A stretch of 44,193 nt of DNA, from contig WFMZ01000013.1 of the NCBI GenBank assembly GCA_015484555.1, forward strand, positions 1 through 44,193, read 5' to 3'. The notes beneath the pieces are model-generated. The model ran no database searches. It was not told the DNA's origin and saw only the letters and a list, made by a program, of their open reading frames with translations. Below are positions 6,985 through 30,992 of the stretch, piece after piece; the stretch's first letter is position 1; every line of letters begins with the position of its first letter. The translations under genes were made by a program, and so were the position numbers. Source of the DNA: Hydrogenovibrio sp. (GTDB taxonomy: Bacteria; Pseudomonadota; Gammaproteobacteria; Thiomicrospirales; Thiomicrospiraceae).

Positions 6985-9900
6985 TTAAGCTAATGCCTTA
7001 ATAAAGTGGGGTATGTCTTCTGCTGGAATGGGTTTTGAATAAAAGTAACCTTGAATATCATGACAACCTTCAGCGAGTAGGAAATCTCGTTGCTCGGCTG
7101 TTTCAACGCCTTCTGCAATTACTATTAAACTTAATGCTTTGGCGAGTGCGATAATGGCTCGGGTAATAGCCGAGTCATTTTCTTCTTTAGGTACACCATC
7201 TATAAAGGCTTTATCAATTTTAAGCTTATCAATAGGCAGTAATTTTAAGTAAGACAGAGAGGAATAGCCGGTACCAAAGTCATCTATGGCAAGTTGAATC
7301 CCCATGTCACTAAGTGACTGTAGAATAGAAATGGCTGCTTCAGGGTTTTTCATTACCTCGCCTTCAACCACTTCTAGTTCTAACCAGTTGGTATGGCAAC
7401 CCGTTTCTAGCAACAGTGCTTTTAAAAAGGGAATAAAGTCTTCTTTTAATAGTTGCTGTATGGTTAGGTTGATAGCCAATATACCAGGGTTAAGGCCTTC
7501 TTTATACCATTCAACGAATTGGGTGAAAGCCTGCTTCATTACATAGCGATCAATGTCGATAATAAGCCCACTTTCTTCTGCAATAGGTAGGAAGTTGCAA
7601 GGTGGCATCATCCCTCGTTGTGGATGGAGCCATCTTATTAAAGCTTCCATGCCGACTAAGCTATTATCTTCGGCATTTACTTGAGGTTGATAATGAATAA
7701 TAAACTCGCCTTTTTTTAAGGCTTCTCGCATGCTAGATTCTAGCTCGATGTAGTCGGTCACTGACCGGGTCATATCTTGTGAATAGTAGGCAAAATCATT
7801 TTTACCATTTTCTTTAGCCTTGTACATGGCACTGTCGGCATACATGAGTAGGTCATCACCATTTTCACTGTCATCCGGGTAGGTGCTAATGCCGATGCTT
7901 GAGGTGATATAAAGTGTGTGGCCTTCTATTTCCATAGGTTCGGCTAATGTAGTTAATATTTTTTTAGCCAGTAAGGAAATGCTCTCTTTGGTTAGAGTGG
8001 GGATGATAATGGTAAATTCATCTCCCCCTAGTCGGGAAACCGCATCATCTCGTCTAATTATTTTATGCAGTCTGGCAGAGGCTTCTTGTAGCACTTTGTC
8101 GCCAATAGCATGCCCTAAAGAATCGTTTATTTGTTTAAACCTATCTAGGTCGATAAAAAAGAGCGTTAGGGATTGATTCAGTCGTTCTGCCTGTTTTAAA
8201 GATTGTGCTAAGGTTTGTTTAAACAAGGCTCTATTGGGAAGTTCGGTTAAAGAATCATAGTGTGCTTGGTGTTGTAGCGTAATACGATGATGCTCAAGTT
8301 TTTGCTCGGCTTGTTTACGTAAGGTAATGTCGGTGGCATAGGCAACGATACGGCTAGGGTGACCATTTTCATCTTTAAGAATCGAGACAGATATAAATAC
8401 ATCAATGATGGAGCCATCTTTTCTGATACGTTTAACTTCACTTTGAAAAGAACCTGTTTGTTCAAGATTTTTCATTACGCTCATAAACTCAGCTAAATCC
8501 TTTTTAGGCGATAGTAGAGAGGCATTTTTACCTAAGAGTTCTGCTTCAGTATAACCATAAATAAATTCAGTACCTTGGTTGGAACTGAGTATATAGCCAT
8601 TAAGGTCGGTTGAAATAACGCTGTCATGCGCTTGCCTTATCATTTGAGCTTGTTGTGCTTCTTTGTGCTTTTGTTTTTTGAGTAGTAGGTTTTGTTCTTC
8701 TAAACTATCTTCAGCCTGTAATCTATTTTCATAGGTCAATAGGTAAAACCACACCAATATCATAATGAAAATAGCAATGATAAAGAAAGCAAGTTTCAAG
8801 GTGTTTGCGATAGCCAGTTTGTCGGATGGACTAACCATAGTTAATGAGAGGATCATCCAAAAAGACACCGCAATCGTAAAGAGTATGAGCGAGCTTAGCA
8901 GTATGAAGCTAAACAATCTTTTAAAAGATTTGGGCGATAGCAATTGAAAAATGGGAGAGTTTTTAGCAGGTAATATTGAGTCAAGTACATTTTCGCTGTC
9001 TTTTTTACAGCTGTCGTGACACAAGGAATCTAAAGAACAGCATAAGGAGCAAATGTTGACTTCATGTTTAGGGCAGTAGGCCATGTCTTCACGCTCGTAG
9101 GTGACAGCGCATACTTTACATTGAAGGTGTGTAATACCTTGCAGCATTATTTTGTTTTCGCGGGCAATGTAGTATTTTCCTTTGGTAATATAAGCAATAA
9201 GTGGGGAAAGTATCAAGGCCAATAGCATGGCAATAAGGGCAGAATAACTTTGTGCATAGTCACCAAATAGTCCCATGAATGCCAGAATAGAGACAATAGA
9301 AGCAATACCCATACTACCCACGCCGACAGGGTTGATGTTGTACAGGTAGGCTCTTTTAAATTCCACTATTTTGGGGCTTAAGCCTAAAGGCTTATTGATC
9401 ATTAAGTCTGCGGTGATGGCAGCAATCCAGGCAATGGCCACATTTGAGTAAAGCCCTAAGATACTACCTAAGAAGTCGAAAATACCCATTTCCATTAACA
9501 TGAGCGCAATAAATATATTAAACACCATCCAAACGGCACGCCCAGGGTGAGTATGGGTTAACCGTGAGAAAAAATTTGACCAAGCAAGTGAACCCGCATA
9601 AGCATTGGTGACGTTAATTTTGATTTGTGAAACCAGAACAAACAGCACGGCAATACCCAGTGCAGCTTCAGGGTTGTCAAAAACATACTGATAGCCAAGA
9701 TAGTACATTTCAATAGGGGTTTTGGCTTCATAGACAGAGAAGCCGGCAGCCAAGACTGCTGATGCCAATAAAATACCGCCCAGTTGCTTTAAAAAGCCCA
9801 GAATAATCCAACCTGGACCGGCAATTAATAAGGAAACCCACCATTGAAAGCGGTTCTTTTTTGTTTGTTCTGGCATAAAACGAAGGTAGTCAACTTGCTC

Positions 9901-10608
9901 TCCAATTTGACCAATTAAGGCAAGGGAAATACCCAGGGCGAAACCAAAATAATAGAGGTTGAAGTCGGCACTTCCAGAGACTTCGCCTGACAATGCCATC
10001 ATGGTTGACAGGGCAGTAGGGTCTTTAATTAAAATAGCCACAAAGGGCGCTATCATTAATAAAATCCAGAAGGGTTGCGTATAAAAATGCAACTTGTTAA
10101 TAAAGGTAATACCACGGTAAACCAGCGGAATAATAATGACGGCACTGATAAAATACCCCCATGACAAAGGTAGTTCGAAGTACAGGAGTAGTGCTTGTGC
10201 CATGATGGCGGCTTCAAGCGCAAAAAATATAAAACTAAAGGTGGCATAAATAAGCGAGGTAAAGGTAGAACCAATGTAACCAAAACCAGCGCTTCGGGTG
10301 ATTAAGTCGATGTCGATATTGTATTTAGCGGCATGGTAGCTAATAGGAATAGCGGTAATAAAAATAATGACAGCAGCGGCTAAAATGGCCCAGAAAGCAG
10401 TGGTAAAACCATACTTGAGAGCAATGGTGGCGCCGATGGCTTCAAGCGCTAAAAAAGAGATACTGCCTATTGACGTATTGGCAATAGTATAAGCAGAAAA
10501 CTGTCTGAAAGATTTTGGGGTATAGCGAAGTGAAAAATCTTCAATAGTTTCATCTGCTACCAGGCGATTATATTGTCTAAGGTTTTTCTCTTCTTGCATA
10601 TACATCAT
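6985..10608 (-). CDS. NCS1-type transporter fused to PAS-GGDEF-EAL (c-di-GMP enzyme)
   Basis: 1207 residues. Residues 1-480 form a multi-helix purine/cytosine-permease-like (NCS1) domain. Residues 497-534 are a Cys-rich segment (C497, C500, C512, C520, C523, C524, C530, C534, with H515 and H531) that looks metal-binding. Two further helices (about 565-590 and 603-625) lead through a short coiled coil to PAS (about 655-765), GGDEF (about 780-940) and EAL (about 958-1205). GGDEF is intact (861-865) with an RxxD inhibitory site at 852-855, so cyclase activity is plausible. EAL (988-990), DDFGTGYSS (from 1109) and the later Glu/Lys residues are kept, so phosphodiesterase activity is also plausible. 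By analogy with transporter-kinase fusions such as CbrA, the transporter part may sense or import a nucleobase-like ligand and tune c-di-GMP (inference). It is a single gene with no partner. Confidence 0.88.
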   Translation of the reverse strand: MMYMQEEKNLRQYNRLVADETIEDFSLRYTPKSFRQFSAYTIANTSIGSISFLALEAIGATIALKYGFTTAFWAILAAAVIIFITAIPISYHAAKYNIDIDLITRSAGFGYIGSTFTSLIYATFSFIFFALEAAIMAQALLLYFELPLSWGYFISAVIIIPLVYRGITFINKLHFYTQPFWILLMIAPFVAILIKDPTALSTMMALSGEVSGSADFNLYYFGFALGISLALIGQIGEQVDYLRFMPEQTKKNRFQWWVSLLIAGPGWIILGFLKQLGGILLASAVLAAGFSVYEAKTPIEMYYLGYQYVFDNPEAALGIAVLFVLVSQIKINVTNAYAGSLAWSNFFSRLTHTHPGRAVWMVFNIFIALMLMEMGIFDFLGSILGLYSNVAIAWIAAITADLMINKPLGLSPKIVEFKRAYLYNINPVGVGSMGIASIVSILAFMGLFGDYAQSYSALIAMLLALILSPLIAYITKGKYYIARENKIMLQGITHLQCKVCAVTYEREDMAYCPKHEVNICSLCCSLDSLCHDSCKKDSENVLDSILPAKNSPIFQLLSPKSFKRLFSFILLSSLILFTIAVSFWMILSLTMVSPSDKLAIANTLKLAFFIIAIFIMILVWFYLLTYENRLQAEDSLEEQNLLLKKQKHKEAQQAQMIRQAHDSVISTDLNGYILSSNQGTEFIYGYTEAELLGKNASLLSPKKDLAEFMSVMKNLEQTGSFQSEVKRIRKDGSIIDVFISVSILKDENGHPSRIVAYATDITLRKQAEQKLEHHRITLQHQAHYDSLTELPNRALFKQTLAQSLKQAERLNQSLTLFFIDLDRFKQINDSLGHAIGDKVLQEASARLHKIIRRDDAVSRLGGDEFTIIIPTLTKESISLLAKKILTTLAEPMEIEGHTLYITSSIGISTYPDDSENGDDLLMYADSAMYKAKENGKNDFAYYSQDMTRSVTDYIELESSMREALKKGEFIIHYQPQVNAEDNSLVGMEALIRWLHPQRGMMPPCNFLPIAEESGLIIDIDRYVMKQAFTQFVEWYKEGLNPGILAINLTIQQLLKEDFIPFLKALLLETGCHTNWLELEVVEGEVMKNPEAAISILQSLSDMGIQLAIDDFGTGYSSLSYLKLLPIDKLKIDKAFIDGVPKEENDSAITRAIIALAKALSLIVIAEGVETAEQRDFLLAEGCHDIQGYFYSKPIPAEDIPHFIKALA

Positions 10609-10714
10609 TCCATGTAGTTGTTTCTTAGGGTTGAATCATTGTGTTTAAAGACCTAATTATACGTTATTAAATATAAGGTATTCATTAATTATTAGAGGTT
10701 AAGTATAGTTGAAA

Positions 10715-10748
10715 GCCTTTTGAAAAGGCAAAAATCGCCAGGGGTGGT
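10715..10748 (+). repeat. Hairpin plus dispersed 19-bp motif, copy A
   Basis: GCCTTTT-GA-AAAGGC forms a small hairpin followed directly by AAAAATCGCCAGGGGTGGT (10730-10748). The same 19 bases occur on the minus strand at 24693-24711, also next to a small hairpin, and 18 of them recur inside a gene at 19458-19475. It lies in the 223-bp gap between the fusion gene and the DNA glycosylase gene; nothing else is recognised there. Confidence 0.7.
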
Positions 10749-10831
10749 CTGCTTAAAAAGAGGTATTTAGGGTGAATATGTTATTATTGATGTTTTAAAT
10801 TAGGCTGTTTTAATCAATAAATAGGCATTAA

Positions 10832-11347
10832 ATGAGTATGAAAAAATGTTTTAGCCCTATCTATGCAAAGGTGCCAAAAGTATTGGTGCTGGGTACCATG
10901 CCTAGTAAAGTCTCATTCGAAAAAAATGAATATTACGCACACCCTCGTAATGCCTTTTGGCCCATTTTAACCCGCTTTTTTAAAGCACCTTTGCAGAGTA
11001 TGGCTGAGAATAAAGCGTTGTGTGAACAGCAGGGCGTCATGATTTGGGACGTATTGGCAGAATGTGAGCGAAAAGGCAGTTTAGATTCGGCAATTAAACA
11101 AGAAAACGTGAACCAGTTTGATTCTTTGTTTCAGGCCAACCCTTCTTTAGAGTACGTTATTTTTAATGGTAAAGCTGCAGAGGCTTTTTTTAAGAAAAAG
11201 GTCTTAAAGAACCAGGCTATTCCTGGGTATATTACCTTCTTTTGTTTGCCCTCAACTAGCCCTGCAAATGCGCAATTAACCCTTGAAAGTAAAAGGGTTG
11301 TCTGGCATGAAACATTACATAAAGTTTTTGGAAATACGGTAGAATAA
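10832..11347 (+). CDS. DNA-deoxyinosine glycosylase (UDG superfamily)
   Basis: Probably removes hypoxanthine (deaminated adenine) from DNA for base-excision repair. The 171 residues fit the family of hypoxanthine-DNA glycosylases within the UDG superfamily. The first motif region VLGTMPSKVSFEKNEYYAHPRNAFWP, the central MIWDVLAECERKGSLDSAI and the late LPSTSPANA are characteristic, and NGKAAEAFF fits the middle strand. ATG at 10832 is taken; a second in-frame ATG lies 6 nt later. It stands alone after a 223-bp gap. A Mug-type specificity is the main alternative. Confidence 0.82.
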   Translation: MSMKKCFSPIYAKVPKVLVLGTMPSKVSFEKNEYYAHPRNAFWPILTRFFKAPLQSMAENKALCEQQGVMIWDVLAECERKGSLDSAIKQENVNQFDSLFQANPSLEYVIFNGKAAEAFFKKKVLKNQAIPGYITFFCLPSTSPANAQLTLESKRVVWHETLHKVFGNTVE

Positions 11348-11422
11348 ACGCCTTATTTTATTGTGCGTGTTTTGCTCATCAATTCCGCCTACCAACACAG
11401 TCAACACTGAAAGGAATTTGCC

Positions 11423-12910
11423 TTGGAAGCAGATAACAACCAGCCAGGCTTAAAACCAAAAGGCTTTAAGTCCGAACTACTTTCCCCTGCGGGAACCTTT
11501 AAAAACATGGAGTTTGCTTTTGCCTACGGAGCAGATGCCGTTTATGCTGGGCAACCCCGTTATAGTTTGCGTGTTCGTAATAATGAATTTGATGAAGCGC
11601 ATTTAGATAAAGGCATTAAGCGTGCCCATGAACTGGGTAAGAAGTTTTATGTGGTCAGTAATATTGCCGCGCACAATGGCAAAATAAAAACCTATATGCG
11701 TGATATTGCGCCCGTAATTGCGATGAAGCCTGATGCGCTGATTATGTCCGACCCTGGGTTAATTGCGATGGTACGAGCAGAATACCCGGAGCAAGAAATT
11801 CACCTATCAGTGCAATCTAATGCCGTCAACTGGGCAACCGTTAAATTTTGGTATGACCAAGGTATTACCCGTGTGGTACTTTCACGAGAATTATCTGTAC
11901 AAGAAATTCGTGAAATTGGCGAAGCCGTGCCAGGCATGGAATTAGAAGTGTTTGTACATGGTGCTTTGTGTATTGCCTATTCAGGTCGTTGTTTGTTGTC
12001 TGGTTACATTAACAAGCGTGATGCAAACCAGGGTACTTGTACCAATGCTTGCCGTTGGAACTATAAAACCTACGAAGGCAAAGAAGACGAAATGGGTGAT
12101 ATTGTGGGTGTGCCGGTTGAAAATATTGGCAACATTACCGAATTAACCTCAGAAGCCAGCAGTGTGTTAGATGATTTGACGACTGAAGCTGCGCCAGAAC
12201 CGACTTTAGGCGTGGGTGAAACTACCGATGTGGCGATGCTGTTAGAAGAAGAAGGCCGCCCTGGTGAATATATGCCTGCTTTTGAAGATGAGCATGGTAC
12301 TTATATTATGAACTCAAAAGATTTACGAGCGGTTGAATTGATTCCTGAATTGGTTCAAATGGGCGTAGATTCGTTAAAGATTGAAGGGCGTACTAAGTCG
12401 CACTATTATGTGGCCAGAACCGCACAGGTTTATCGTAAAGCGATTGATGATGCGGCGGAAGGTAAGCCATTCGATACCAATTTATTATCAGATCTTGAAA
12501 GCCTAGCTAGTCGTGGCTACACAGAAGGTTTTTTACGTAGACACGTTCATTCGGAATATCAAAACTATGAATATGGTGTGTCAAAGTCTGACCGCCAACG
12601 CTTTGTAGGGGAAGTGACTGCGGTACTAGACCGTGAAGGTCGTAGCTTTTTAGAAGTAGACGTTAAAAACAAGTTCTGTATTGGCGATTCGCTTGAGATT
12701 ATGACACCAACAGGTAACGTTACCTTGGTCTTAAATGAAATGTATAACAAACATGATGAAGCCATTGAAGCTGCACTAGGTTCTGGTTGGGTTGCTCGTA
12801 TTCCCAACCCATTTGTGGACTTAGATTTTGATGTATTACGATTTGCTTTGATTATGCGTAACGAGTCTTGGGGTGGCGATACAAAGCGAGATGCTGCTGC
12901 AAAAGGGTAG
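11423..12910 (+). CDS. trhP: TrhP (YegQ), prephenate-dependent tRNA U34 hydroxylase
   Basis: U32-peptidase-family protein of the YegQ/TrhP type, which makes 5-hydroxyuridine at tRNA position 34. The start is TTG at 11423, supported by AAGGA 7 nt upstream. Of 495 residues, the N-terminal barrel begins at LLSPAGTFKNMEFAFAYGAD. Cys residues C183, C190, C206 and C210 (HGALCIAYSGRC ... GTCTNACRW) fit the family's Fe-S-binding region. FEDEHGTYIMNSKDLRA is the conserved block after it. Compared with E. coli YegQ (about 453 residues) there is an extra Ser/Thr/acidic stretch at about 235-258. The gene sits 2 nt from a YfhL-type ferredoxin, which may supply electrons or cluster support (inference). Confidence 0.92.
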   Translation: MEADNNQPGLKPKGFKSELLSPAGTFKNMEFAFAYGADAVYAGQPRYSLRVRNNEFDEAHLDKGIKRAHELGKKFYVVSNIAAHNGKIKTYMRDIAPVIAMKPDALIMSDPGLIAMVRAEYPEQEIHLSVQSNAVNWATVKFWYDQGITRVVLSRELSVQEIREIGEAVPGMELEVFVHGALCIAYSGRCLLSGYINKRDANQGTCTNACRWNYKTYEGKEDEMGDIVGVPVENIGNITELTSEASSVLDDLTTEAAPEPTLGVGETTDVAMLLEEEGRPGEYMPAFEDEHGTYIMNSKDLRAVELIPELVQMGVDSLKIEGRTKSHYYVARTAQVYRKAIDDAAEGKPFDTNLLSDLESLASRGYTEGFLRRHVHSEYQNYEYGVSKSDRQRFVGEVTAVLDREGRSFLEVDVKNKFCIGDSLEIMTPTGNVTLVLNEMYNKHDEAIEAALGSGWVARIPNPFVDLDFDVLRFALIMRNESWGGDTKRDAAAKG

Positions 12911-30119: not shown

Positions 30120-30992
30120 TTATTGAATTTTAGAGAGTAGCGCGGGGTTTTGAACTAAGTTACGAACACCATGGGCGTGATTTTCTTTAAAGTCATTTCC
30201 TTTACACCACTGACCAACAGTTTTAATATTTACCTTTGCAACCTTGGGGCGAACACTCCAAGTGACTTGGAAAGGAGATCCTTTTTCATTATAGCCTGGC
30301 CCAGTTGTTGAACCAGCATATTGGATAGGTAAACCTGTATTGGTCGGGATATTTAATGCTTGGTAACGAGCATCTTTTTTGCCATAAGCGGTTAGCTTGG
30401 CGAAGTCTAAAGCTTTATCATCGTTTACCAGTACATAAACTTGTGTTTCAACACGTAGCTGTGGGTTTTTGATAGACTTACTTAAGCAAGAGTTTAAGGT
30501 TGCACCAGGTTTAACATCTGCTGTTGAATAGACGTAATGCACTTCAATGGTATCCCCTGTTGATAAAGCACCATGCTTACTTGGGCAGATTTCACTGTGA
30601 ACGGCACGGGCTTCTACAGCGCTAAGTTTCCCACTGTATTTATAACCGCTTAGATTGCCATGGCCATCGCCATTACCAGCATAAGTTGTAAATTCTCCAC
30701 CTTTATGTTCGGCATTTTTATGGAAATGGATGTTACAAAGATTCATTTTGTTAGAGGTCGGTGCTAGACCAAATAAGCGAGCATTTGTACCTGTTTTTGA
30801 ATCAATATCTCTAGGTGATTGTGGCCCAAAACCTTTATTATAAGTATTTTTTGCTAGTATCTCTCGTTGTTCAGCCACAATATGGTCTGAGACAACCGCA
30901 TGTGCATGGTTTTCTTCTTCGTGATGTACTATGCTTGAACAAGCAGGTAAAAAAGCTGCCGTGGCGAGGATAAGTAAAGATTTTTTAAACAT
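30120..30992 (-). CDS. Probable delta-class carbonic anhydrase, lipoprotein
   Basis: 290 residues. The N-terminus has a hydrophobic signal and FLPAC lipobox-like site (C18). The body has NLCNIHFHKNAEHKGGEF, giving clustered H89, H91 and H96, followed by GDTIEVHYVYS (H152). The HxH pattern with a third His one strand away fits a zinc carbonic anhydrase site and matches, from memory, bacterial proteins named delta-class carbonic anhydrase. C86, C136, C169 and C263 could form disulfides. It would interconvert CO2 and bicarbonate in the periplasm, useful for an autotroph (inference). It has its own promoter and terminator. Confidence 0.72.
   Translation of the reverse strand: MFKKSLLILATAAFLPACSSIVHHEEENHAHAVVSDHIVAEQREILAKNTYNKGFGPQSPRDIDSKTGTNARLFGLAPTSNKMNLCNIHFHKNAEHKGGEFTTYAGNGDGHGNLSGYKYSGKLSAVEARAVHSEICPSKHGALSTGDTIEVHYVYSTADVKPGATLNSCLSKSIKNPQLRVETQVYVLVNDDKALDFAKLTAYGKKDARYQALNIPTNTGLPIQYAGSTTGPGYNEKGSPFQVTWSVRPKVAKVNIKTVGQWCKGNDFKENHAHGVRNLVQNPALLSKIQ

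Follow-up and report, generated by a model that had tools for sequence, protein, structure and literature searches.

What might a signaling protein sense when its membrane half resembles a transporter and its cytoplasmic half is predicted to make and degrade the second messenger cyclic di-GMP (c-di-GMP)? The question is raised by a gene of Hydrogenovibrio sp. (assembly GCA_015484555.1) at positions 6985-10608 on the minus strand of contig WFMZ01000013.1, whose 44,193 nucleotides are the stretch analyzed here (the window). An earlier sequence-only reading described its product as a purine/cytosine-permease-like transporter joined by a cysteine-rich linker to a PAS-GGDEF-EAL module, and proposed that a nucleobase-like ligand, perhaps along with metal or redox state, sets c-di-GMP. 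We instead favor a transporter-derived membrane receptor that would set c-di-GMP in response to urea or a short amide as the most likely ligand, a reading to which we give slightly less than an even chance.

Domain architecture of the fusion protein

The gene is, as had been claimed, a single uninterrupted frame of 1207 residues from ATG to stop, and a sequencing or joining artefact is ruled out by the same fusion in eight other, independent genomes. Its parts are as follows:

6985..10608 (-): whole gene, 1207 residues, with NCS1-like module, eight-cysteine knot, two transmembrane helices, PAS, GGDEF and EAL
9169..10608 (-): divergent NCS1 (LeuT-fold) domain, residues 1-480, supported by hhalign, AlphaFold and Foldseek
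9001..9129 (-): eight-cysteine knot, residues 494-536, from sequence and AlphaFold model
8677..8934 (-): two predicted transmembrane helices leading into a signaling helix, residues 559-644, from sequence and AlphaFold; within the DibA profile match
8314..8646 (-): PAS domain, residues 655-765, by Pfam; wanting in some relatives
7798..8265 (-): GGDEF domain, residues 782-937, by Pfam (7.6e-52)
8044..8055 (-): RxxD inhibitory site, residues 852-855, five residues ahead of GGDEF
8014..8028 (-): GGDEF motif, residues 861-865, from sequence and alignment
7030..7734 (-): EAL domain, residues 959-1193, by Pfam (1.3e-74)
7639..7647 (-): EAL motif, residues 988-990, from sequence and alignment

The GGDEF, RxxD and EAL motifs (at 861, 852-855 and 988) are intact, as had been stated, with DFGTG at 1110, and an alignment with nine GGDEF-bearing relatives shows that DDFGTG, KIDK and AEGVE are also kept. 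The Pfam domains and intact motifs agree with the earlier view of an apparently active PAS-GGDEF-EAL module. Its GGDEF, RxxD, EAL, DDFGTG and KIDK motifs suggest a bifunctional and putatively active GGDEF-EAL enzyme, in which either activity of the predicted cyclase/phosphodiesterase pair may dominate. The two additional transmembrane helices (559-644) between the cysteine knot and PAS had been missed by the sequence-only reading. The best NCBIfam model, DibA (NF045675), matches residues 574-1199 from its position 5 with 572.2 bits, below its cut-off of 980, so that the protein is not DibA; the extent of this match suggests that the C-terminal half resembles an entire DibA-type phosphodiesterase with two transmembrane helices, PAS, GGDEF and EAL, in front of which stands the NCS1 module.

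The N-terminal half as a divergent NCS1 domain

Pfam recovers the PAS, GGDEF and EAL domains and leaves residues 1-640 without any match at E ≤ 1. At the same threshold PF02133, to which the sequence-only reading pointed, is matched neither by the window protein nor by any of 18 aligned relatives (alignment A1), and the SSS transporter domain is likewise unmatched. The permease-like assignment nevertheless holds on other evidence. When alignment A1 is compared by hhalign with seven PF02133 proteins taken from other genomes, the score is 98.9% across 401 columns. The PF02133 cut-off is passed (31.5 versus 23.5) by L021, a relative that stands alone and shares 45% identity with the window protein. 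An AlphaFold model of residues 1-645 from an 80-row alignment (A2; mean pLDDT 90.2, pTM 0.90) comprises a helical transporter domain, a strand-rich knot (494-526) and helices 559-589 and 594-644, with lower confidence near 531-550 (block means 60-68), the region of the last cysteine. In a Foldseek comparison of the model with the PDB, ranks 1-5 are all Mhp1 or CodB, followed by Nramp at rank 6 and then by SSS-type folds, which are thus outranked by NCS1 folds. Because of the hhalign score, the L021 match and the Mhp1/CodB folds at the top, the identification of a divergent NCS1 domain is well supported. Sequence searches of the PDB yielded two chance matches with profile A1, and, with L021, weak cytochrome matches to its tail only (E 0.0014 and 0.0041).

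Mhp1 positions were mapped onto the window protein by two hhalign modes: Q42 corresponds to F52, W117 to F128, Q121 to E132, W220 to I232, N318 to N335, S312 to K330 and T313 to I331, the last two becoming I329/K330 by an alternative route of chaining by eye. The W117/W220 pair, which we take to be the ring-stacking tryptophans, and S312/T313, presumably the Na2 residues, are not kept, while N318 is kept as N335. Among the 80 rows N335 and K330 never vary, E132 is found in 79, and position 128 holds F 63 times and L 17 times. The window protein therefore shares with Mhp1 and CodB the fold and a remote homology across most of the transporter domain, and differs from them in the tryptophan pair, the Na2 residues, and the added cysteine knot, transmembrane pair and output domains. 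The lysine near the Na2 site suggests independence of sodium; Na2 residues are not conserved in CbrA either, according to PMC7918813.

A widespread module with exchangeable outputs

The module occurs once in the genome, all but one of 34 full-protein matches starting at residue 604 or later, and within its taxonomic family the module occurs in this genome only (1/62). The idea that the protein is unique is nonetheless ruled out by relatives in a class sample, a contig scan and the Sulfurimonas family. The class sample gave matches in 20 of 369 genomes, of which 18 were counted as module genomes after two weak partial matches (G175, G180) were dropped and G099, partial at a contig end, was kept. 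The contig scan found at least 575 relatives among 596 stretches, the best 80 of which were used. In a 109-row tree, with duplicate loci and rows of fewer than 420 aligned residues left out, outputs typed by local profile search (some kinases by motif) are histidine kinase in 90, GGDEF-EAL in nine, GGDEF alone in one and none in nine. Of the rows without output, L036, L056, L086 and L135 run off a contig end, another four (L021, L026, L067, L088) are stand-alone modules, and the last is L129 from a Sulfurimonas-family genome (G578), where the fusion is split at 7690-11723 into a module-PAS-PAS frame and an overlapping second frame with GGDEF-EAL, either a genuine break or a sequencing error.

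G429 belongs to a family that the label of L032 identifies as Sulfurimonadaceae; of 200 genomes from this family 13 gave matches, G629 in fragments only. The remaining 12 carry 13 copies, namely seven GGDEF-EAL fusions, the split one, one GGDEF fusion and four of histidine kinase type, one of which (G441) is cut inside HisKA. Among the GGDEF-EAL fusions of the eight other genomes one is degenerate in its motifs and two lack PAS. The degenerate one (L033, 3861-7127), with NGNEF for GGDEF and DNYGTG for DDFGTG, is possibly a c-di-GMP receptor without activity. PAS is absent from L033 and L133, and is thus not essential to the layout. One genome, G197, carries both a GGDEF-EAL copy and a kinase copy. 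The genomes of L132 (3017-7592) and L133 (3992-8580) have a gene set in common that includes genes for a distant cytochrome-oxidase-I-like and a DMSO-reductase-B-type protein, but it stands on opposite flanks of the fusion in the two.

A careful 42-row tree places the window protein in a clade of 14 rows (100/99), where it is joined by 13 rows from the Sulfurimonas family; this clade lies inside one of 20 rows (100/97). In its output half the window protein shares 50-55% identity with most Sulfurimonas-family fusions and 44% with L033, as against 35-37% with the nearest enzymes of its own genome. On the strength of the nesting and of these identities, the entire fusion has most likely moved horizontally between Campylobacterota and this gammaproteobacterium, in either direction. 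A single origin of all GGDEF-EAL fusions, with the nine rows held together, was rejected (p-AU 5e-114), although this group was defined after an earlier tree had been viewed and output losses could account for part of the result. A separate fusion event is favored for G197, since its output is only 33% identical to that of the window protein, as against the 44-55% of the Sulfurimonas-family fusions and the 35-37% of the window genome's other enzymes. Next to the c-di-GMP clade, three beta-proteobacterial kinases (L060, L071, L095) sit on a long branch.

Urea and amide genes beside the relatives

The ligand guess comes from gene neighborhoods. A tblastn search that required E 1e-20 and, over 60% of the probe, an identity of at least 35% (the UreC probe being from L065) found urtA in 34 of the best 80 loci, fmdA in 19, ureC in 17 and any of the three in 52. 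All 52 lie outside the window's clade, that is, among the 73 loci remaining after removal of L030-L036 (stored lengths 4.5 to about 18 kb), and three more of the 73 hold urtB-E. None of the three genes occurs in 20 control stretches of 18 kb, two of which gave weak urtD/E matches, though these controls were preset positions in four module-bearing genomes only, which limits the contrast. This difference, 52/73 against 0/20, makes urea or a small amide a better guess than a nucleobase.

The class sample behaves similarly. The module lies 0.3-1.5 kb from urtA in seven genomes (G198, G308, G416, G231, G109, G130, G070), 1.0-2.1 kb from ureC in G167 and G338, and 0.2 kb from fmdA in G322; none of the three genes was found on the module's contig in six (G093, G188, G113, G256, G299, G197). 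FmdA (E 1e-60) and the module occur together in five genomes, within 9 kb in all five. Uncorrected for kinship, co-occurrence is 15/18 module genomes versus 69/351 others for UreC (p 3.6e-8), 13/18 versus 71/351 for UrtA (p 6.3e-6) and 5/18 versus 14/351 for FmdA (p 0.0012). In a Paracoccus plasmid record, fmdA and urtEDCBA are oriented away from the genes for the sensor and its response regulator; two Ensifer/Sinorhizobium records are without annotation at that locus. Kinase and regulator genes adjoin urt genes also in PMC13296017 and PMC2907700 and, as far as the accessible text of these papers goes, were not studied there. We infer that these kinases belong to the same family, and that the one drawn for Ectopseudomonas guguanensis in PMC13296017 is an example of a module-bearing hybrid histidine kinase. 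Such kinases beside urtABCDE-fmdA share the N-terminal module (45-66% identity among the aligned kinase rows); they differ from the window protein in having a kinase output and, in many cases, urea/amide neighbors, where it has GGDEF-EAL and no such neighbors.

A clade without urea genes

Several observations weigh against urea or an amide as the ligand of the window protein. Outside its clade, 18 of the 73 loci have neither urtA, fmdA or ureC nor a urtB-E run, and the flanks of L060, L071 and L095, which are among the 73, hold none of the three genes. Within the clade, tblastn found the three genes in 0/16 loci, some of them on short contigs. A joint probe with AmiE, FmdA, UrtA and UreC (E 1e-20) was negative in all 15 clade genomes, those of kinase members included, several being drafts and the search not extending to urea carboxylase, allophanate hydrolase or further amidases; the same probe gave matches in four of four comparison genomes, among them G115, the source of the AmiE probe. 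UreC is absent from the window's genome and from G197, and was found in 0/7 genomes of L030-L036 as against 6/6 cyanobacterial genomes; G231, outside the clade, lacks UreC and has UrtA and FmdA. Near the mapped pocket, position 125 is S or C in the clade and T in 68/70 of the rest, 226 is G as against mostly T or A, and 229 is L as against mostly F, L or I. Moreover, the invariance of N335, E132 and K330 may stem from the fold and not from the ligand, and F128, being aromatic, could still stack a ring ligand.

The absence of urea/amide genes from the loci and genomes of the clade suggests that the ligand may have changed within it. The main rival account accordingly keeps the receptor architecture and confines the urea/amide link to the rest of the family, the Sulfurimonas-centred clade sensing another small nitrogen or sulfur compound. 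Besides the missing genes, six positions that differ consistently between clade and rest by thresholds set here (22, 92, 227, 279, 285, 424) speak for it, together with the three near the pocket; at the mapped Mhp1-site positions, in contrast, the commonest residue is identical in clade and rest. We regard this account as possible but rather unlikely, an unchanged ligand class with a new output being the simplest view.

The nucleobase-like ligand of the sequence-only reading, now in the form of a nucleobase or hydantoin bound at the classical NCS1 site and setting c-di-GMP, fares considerably worse. The NCS1 homology and fold, the retention of Mhp1 N318 as N335 and the exchange of W117 for another aromatic residue stand on its side, but the replacement of W220 by isoleucine would argue mildly against a flat ring ligand, and it is urea/amide genes that adjoin the relatives; we consider it improbable.

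Still less probable is a protein that is chiefly a transporter, its activity adjusted by the c-di-GMP turned over at its C-terminal end. Each of the four stand-alone modules has ureC (L021) or fmdA (L026, L067, L088) no more than 2.5 kb away, which suggests that the module can probably transport, and CbrA transports histidine (PMC7918813). Kinase outputs in 90 of the 109 tree rows argue for signaling, however, and the clade genomes lack the four probed enzymes and carriers for the likely substrates. Among the stand-alone proteins, L021 (8092-9777 of L170), with ureC 2.1 kb away on the same strand and a neighbor that by eye is nickel-transporter-like, is a candidate urea permease. Candidate amide permeases are the NCS1-eight-cysteine proteins of L067 (7965-9623, about 40 bases before fmdA) and L026 (1282-3132 in G322, about 160 bases before fmdA).

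The linker indeed contains the eight cysteines attributed to it, at 497, 500, 512, 520, 523, 524, 530 and 534 (C-x2-C-x11-C-x7-C-x2-CC-x5-C-x3-C). AlphaFold predicts four short strands and one helix for residues 494-536. The best match to the knot alone, 2n94 (a Box C/D snoRNA protein; E 0.65), is not significant, and residues 480-650 match no family at E ≤ 1 in a Pfam set whose inclusion of a STAC model was unchecked. No cysteine is missing from more than one of the 80 rows, and since these include histidine kinase types the knot is probably a structural zinc element, not a sensor special to this protein. That metal or redox state at this knot sets c-di-GMP, with the NCS1 domain as a membrane anchor, draws on the same conservation but is very improbable, as the knot is equally conserved in kinase relatives beside urea genes, recurs in stand-alone L026, L067 and L088, is modeled as what looks like a structural zinc knot, and is about matched in conservation by the mapped pocket residues.

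Proposed mechanism and relation to known receptors

In the receptor that we favor, the NCS1-fold domain would bind a small polar ligand, urea or a short amide such as formamide or acetamide, and its opening or closing would be relayed through the probably zinc-bound eight-cysteine knot and the extra transmembrane pair to a coiled coil. The signal would then reach PAS and GGDEF-EAL and shift the balance of c-di-GMP synthesis and hydrolysis one way or the other. Among the urea users that make up most of the family, the module would drive a kinase, often beside urea/amide uptake genes, and in the window's clade the ligand could be a cue from decaying biomass or excretion rather than a nutrient. 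More broadly, and only tentatively, we propose that a widespread, unnamed NCS1-eight-cysteine receptor family senses urea and short amides, using them for kinase-controlled uptake in urea users and as a c-di-GMP habitat signal in non-ureolytic bacteria of the Sulfurimonas type.

The layout of a one-protein sensor akin to CbrA, suggested earlier, is supported. As described in PMC7918813, SLC5/STAC kinases (CbrA, CrbS/MxtR, RpuS) likewise combine a LeuT-fold transporter domain, a linker domain and cytoplasmic signaling domains; the window protein differs in having NCS1 instead of SSS, an eight-cysteine knot and two transmembrane helices as linker, and c-di-GMP enzymes instead of a kinase. In 5TMR receptors a transporter fold serves as receptor with GGDEF/EAL among the outputs (PMC11109136), the fold there being that of an ECF S-component and here LeuT/NCS1. 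With these precedents the architecture is not wholly new. The earlier impression that no c-di-GMP counterpart is known thus stands for NCS1 itself, no paper on its fusion to GGDEF/EAL being found among the matches listed from literature that excluded most subscription papers and all preprints, and falls for transporter folds at large.

If the proposal is true, the family would, as far as is known from the literature searched, be the first case of an NCS1-type receptor in bacteria and also of a c-di-GMP receptor that responds to urea or amides. The analysis ties a widely spread, Pfam-silent membrane module to a testable ligand class and, for many bacteria that use urea, yields a candidate sensor behind their urea/amide regulation. 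The ligands of c-di-GMP enzymes can seldom be guessed from sequence, and here gene context supplies a guess, for an input module that is found joined to kinases, to GGDEF alone and to GGDEF-EAL. Bacteria seemingly unable to use urea may respond to it via a protein of this type.

Other genes of the window

The fusion gene is flanked by rimO on one side and by UDG-superfamily and peptidase U32 genes on the other, which are uninformative on the ligand. Ten neighbors of clade genes (ALAD, CobD, a LysR regulator, an amine oxidase, a DmsC-type protein, a kinase, a TPR protein, two helicases and an epimerase) likewise have no theme in common and include no extracellular binding protein. The eight of 101 records listed for the adjoining rimO are all Gammaproteobacteria by name, at 68-70% identity. 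At 30120-30992 the window encodes a delta-type carbonic anhydrase, which fits a CO2-fixing organism.

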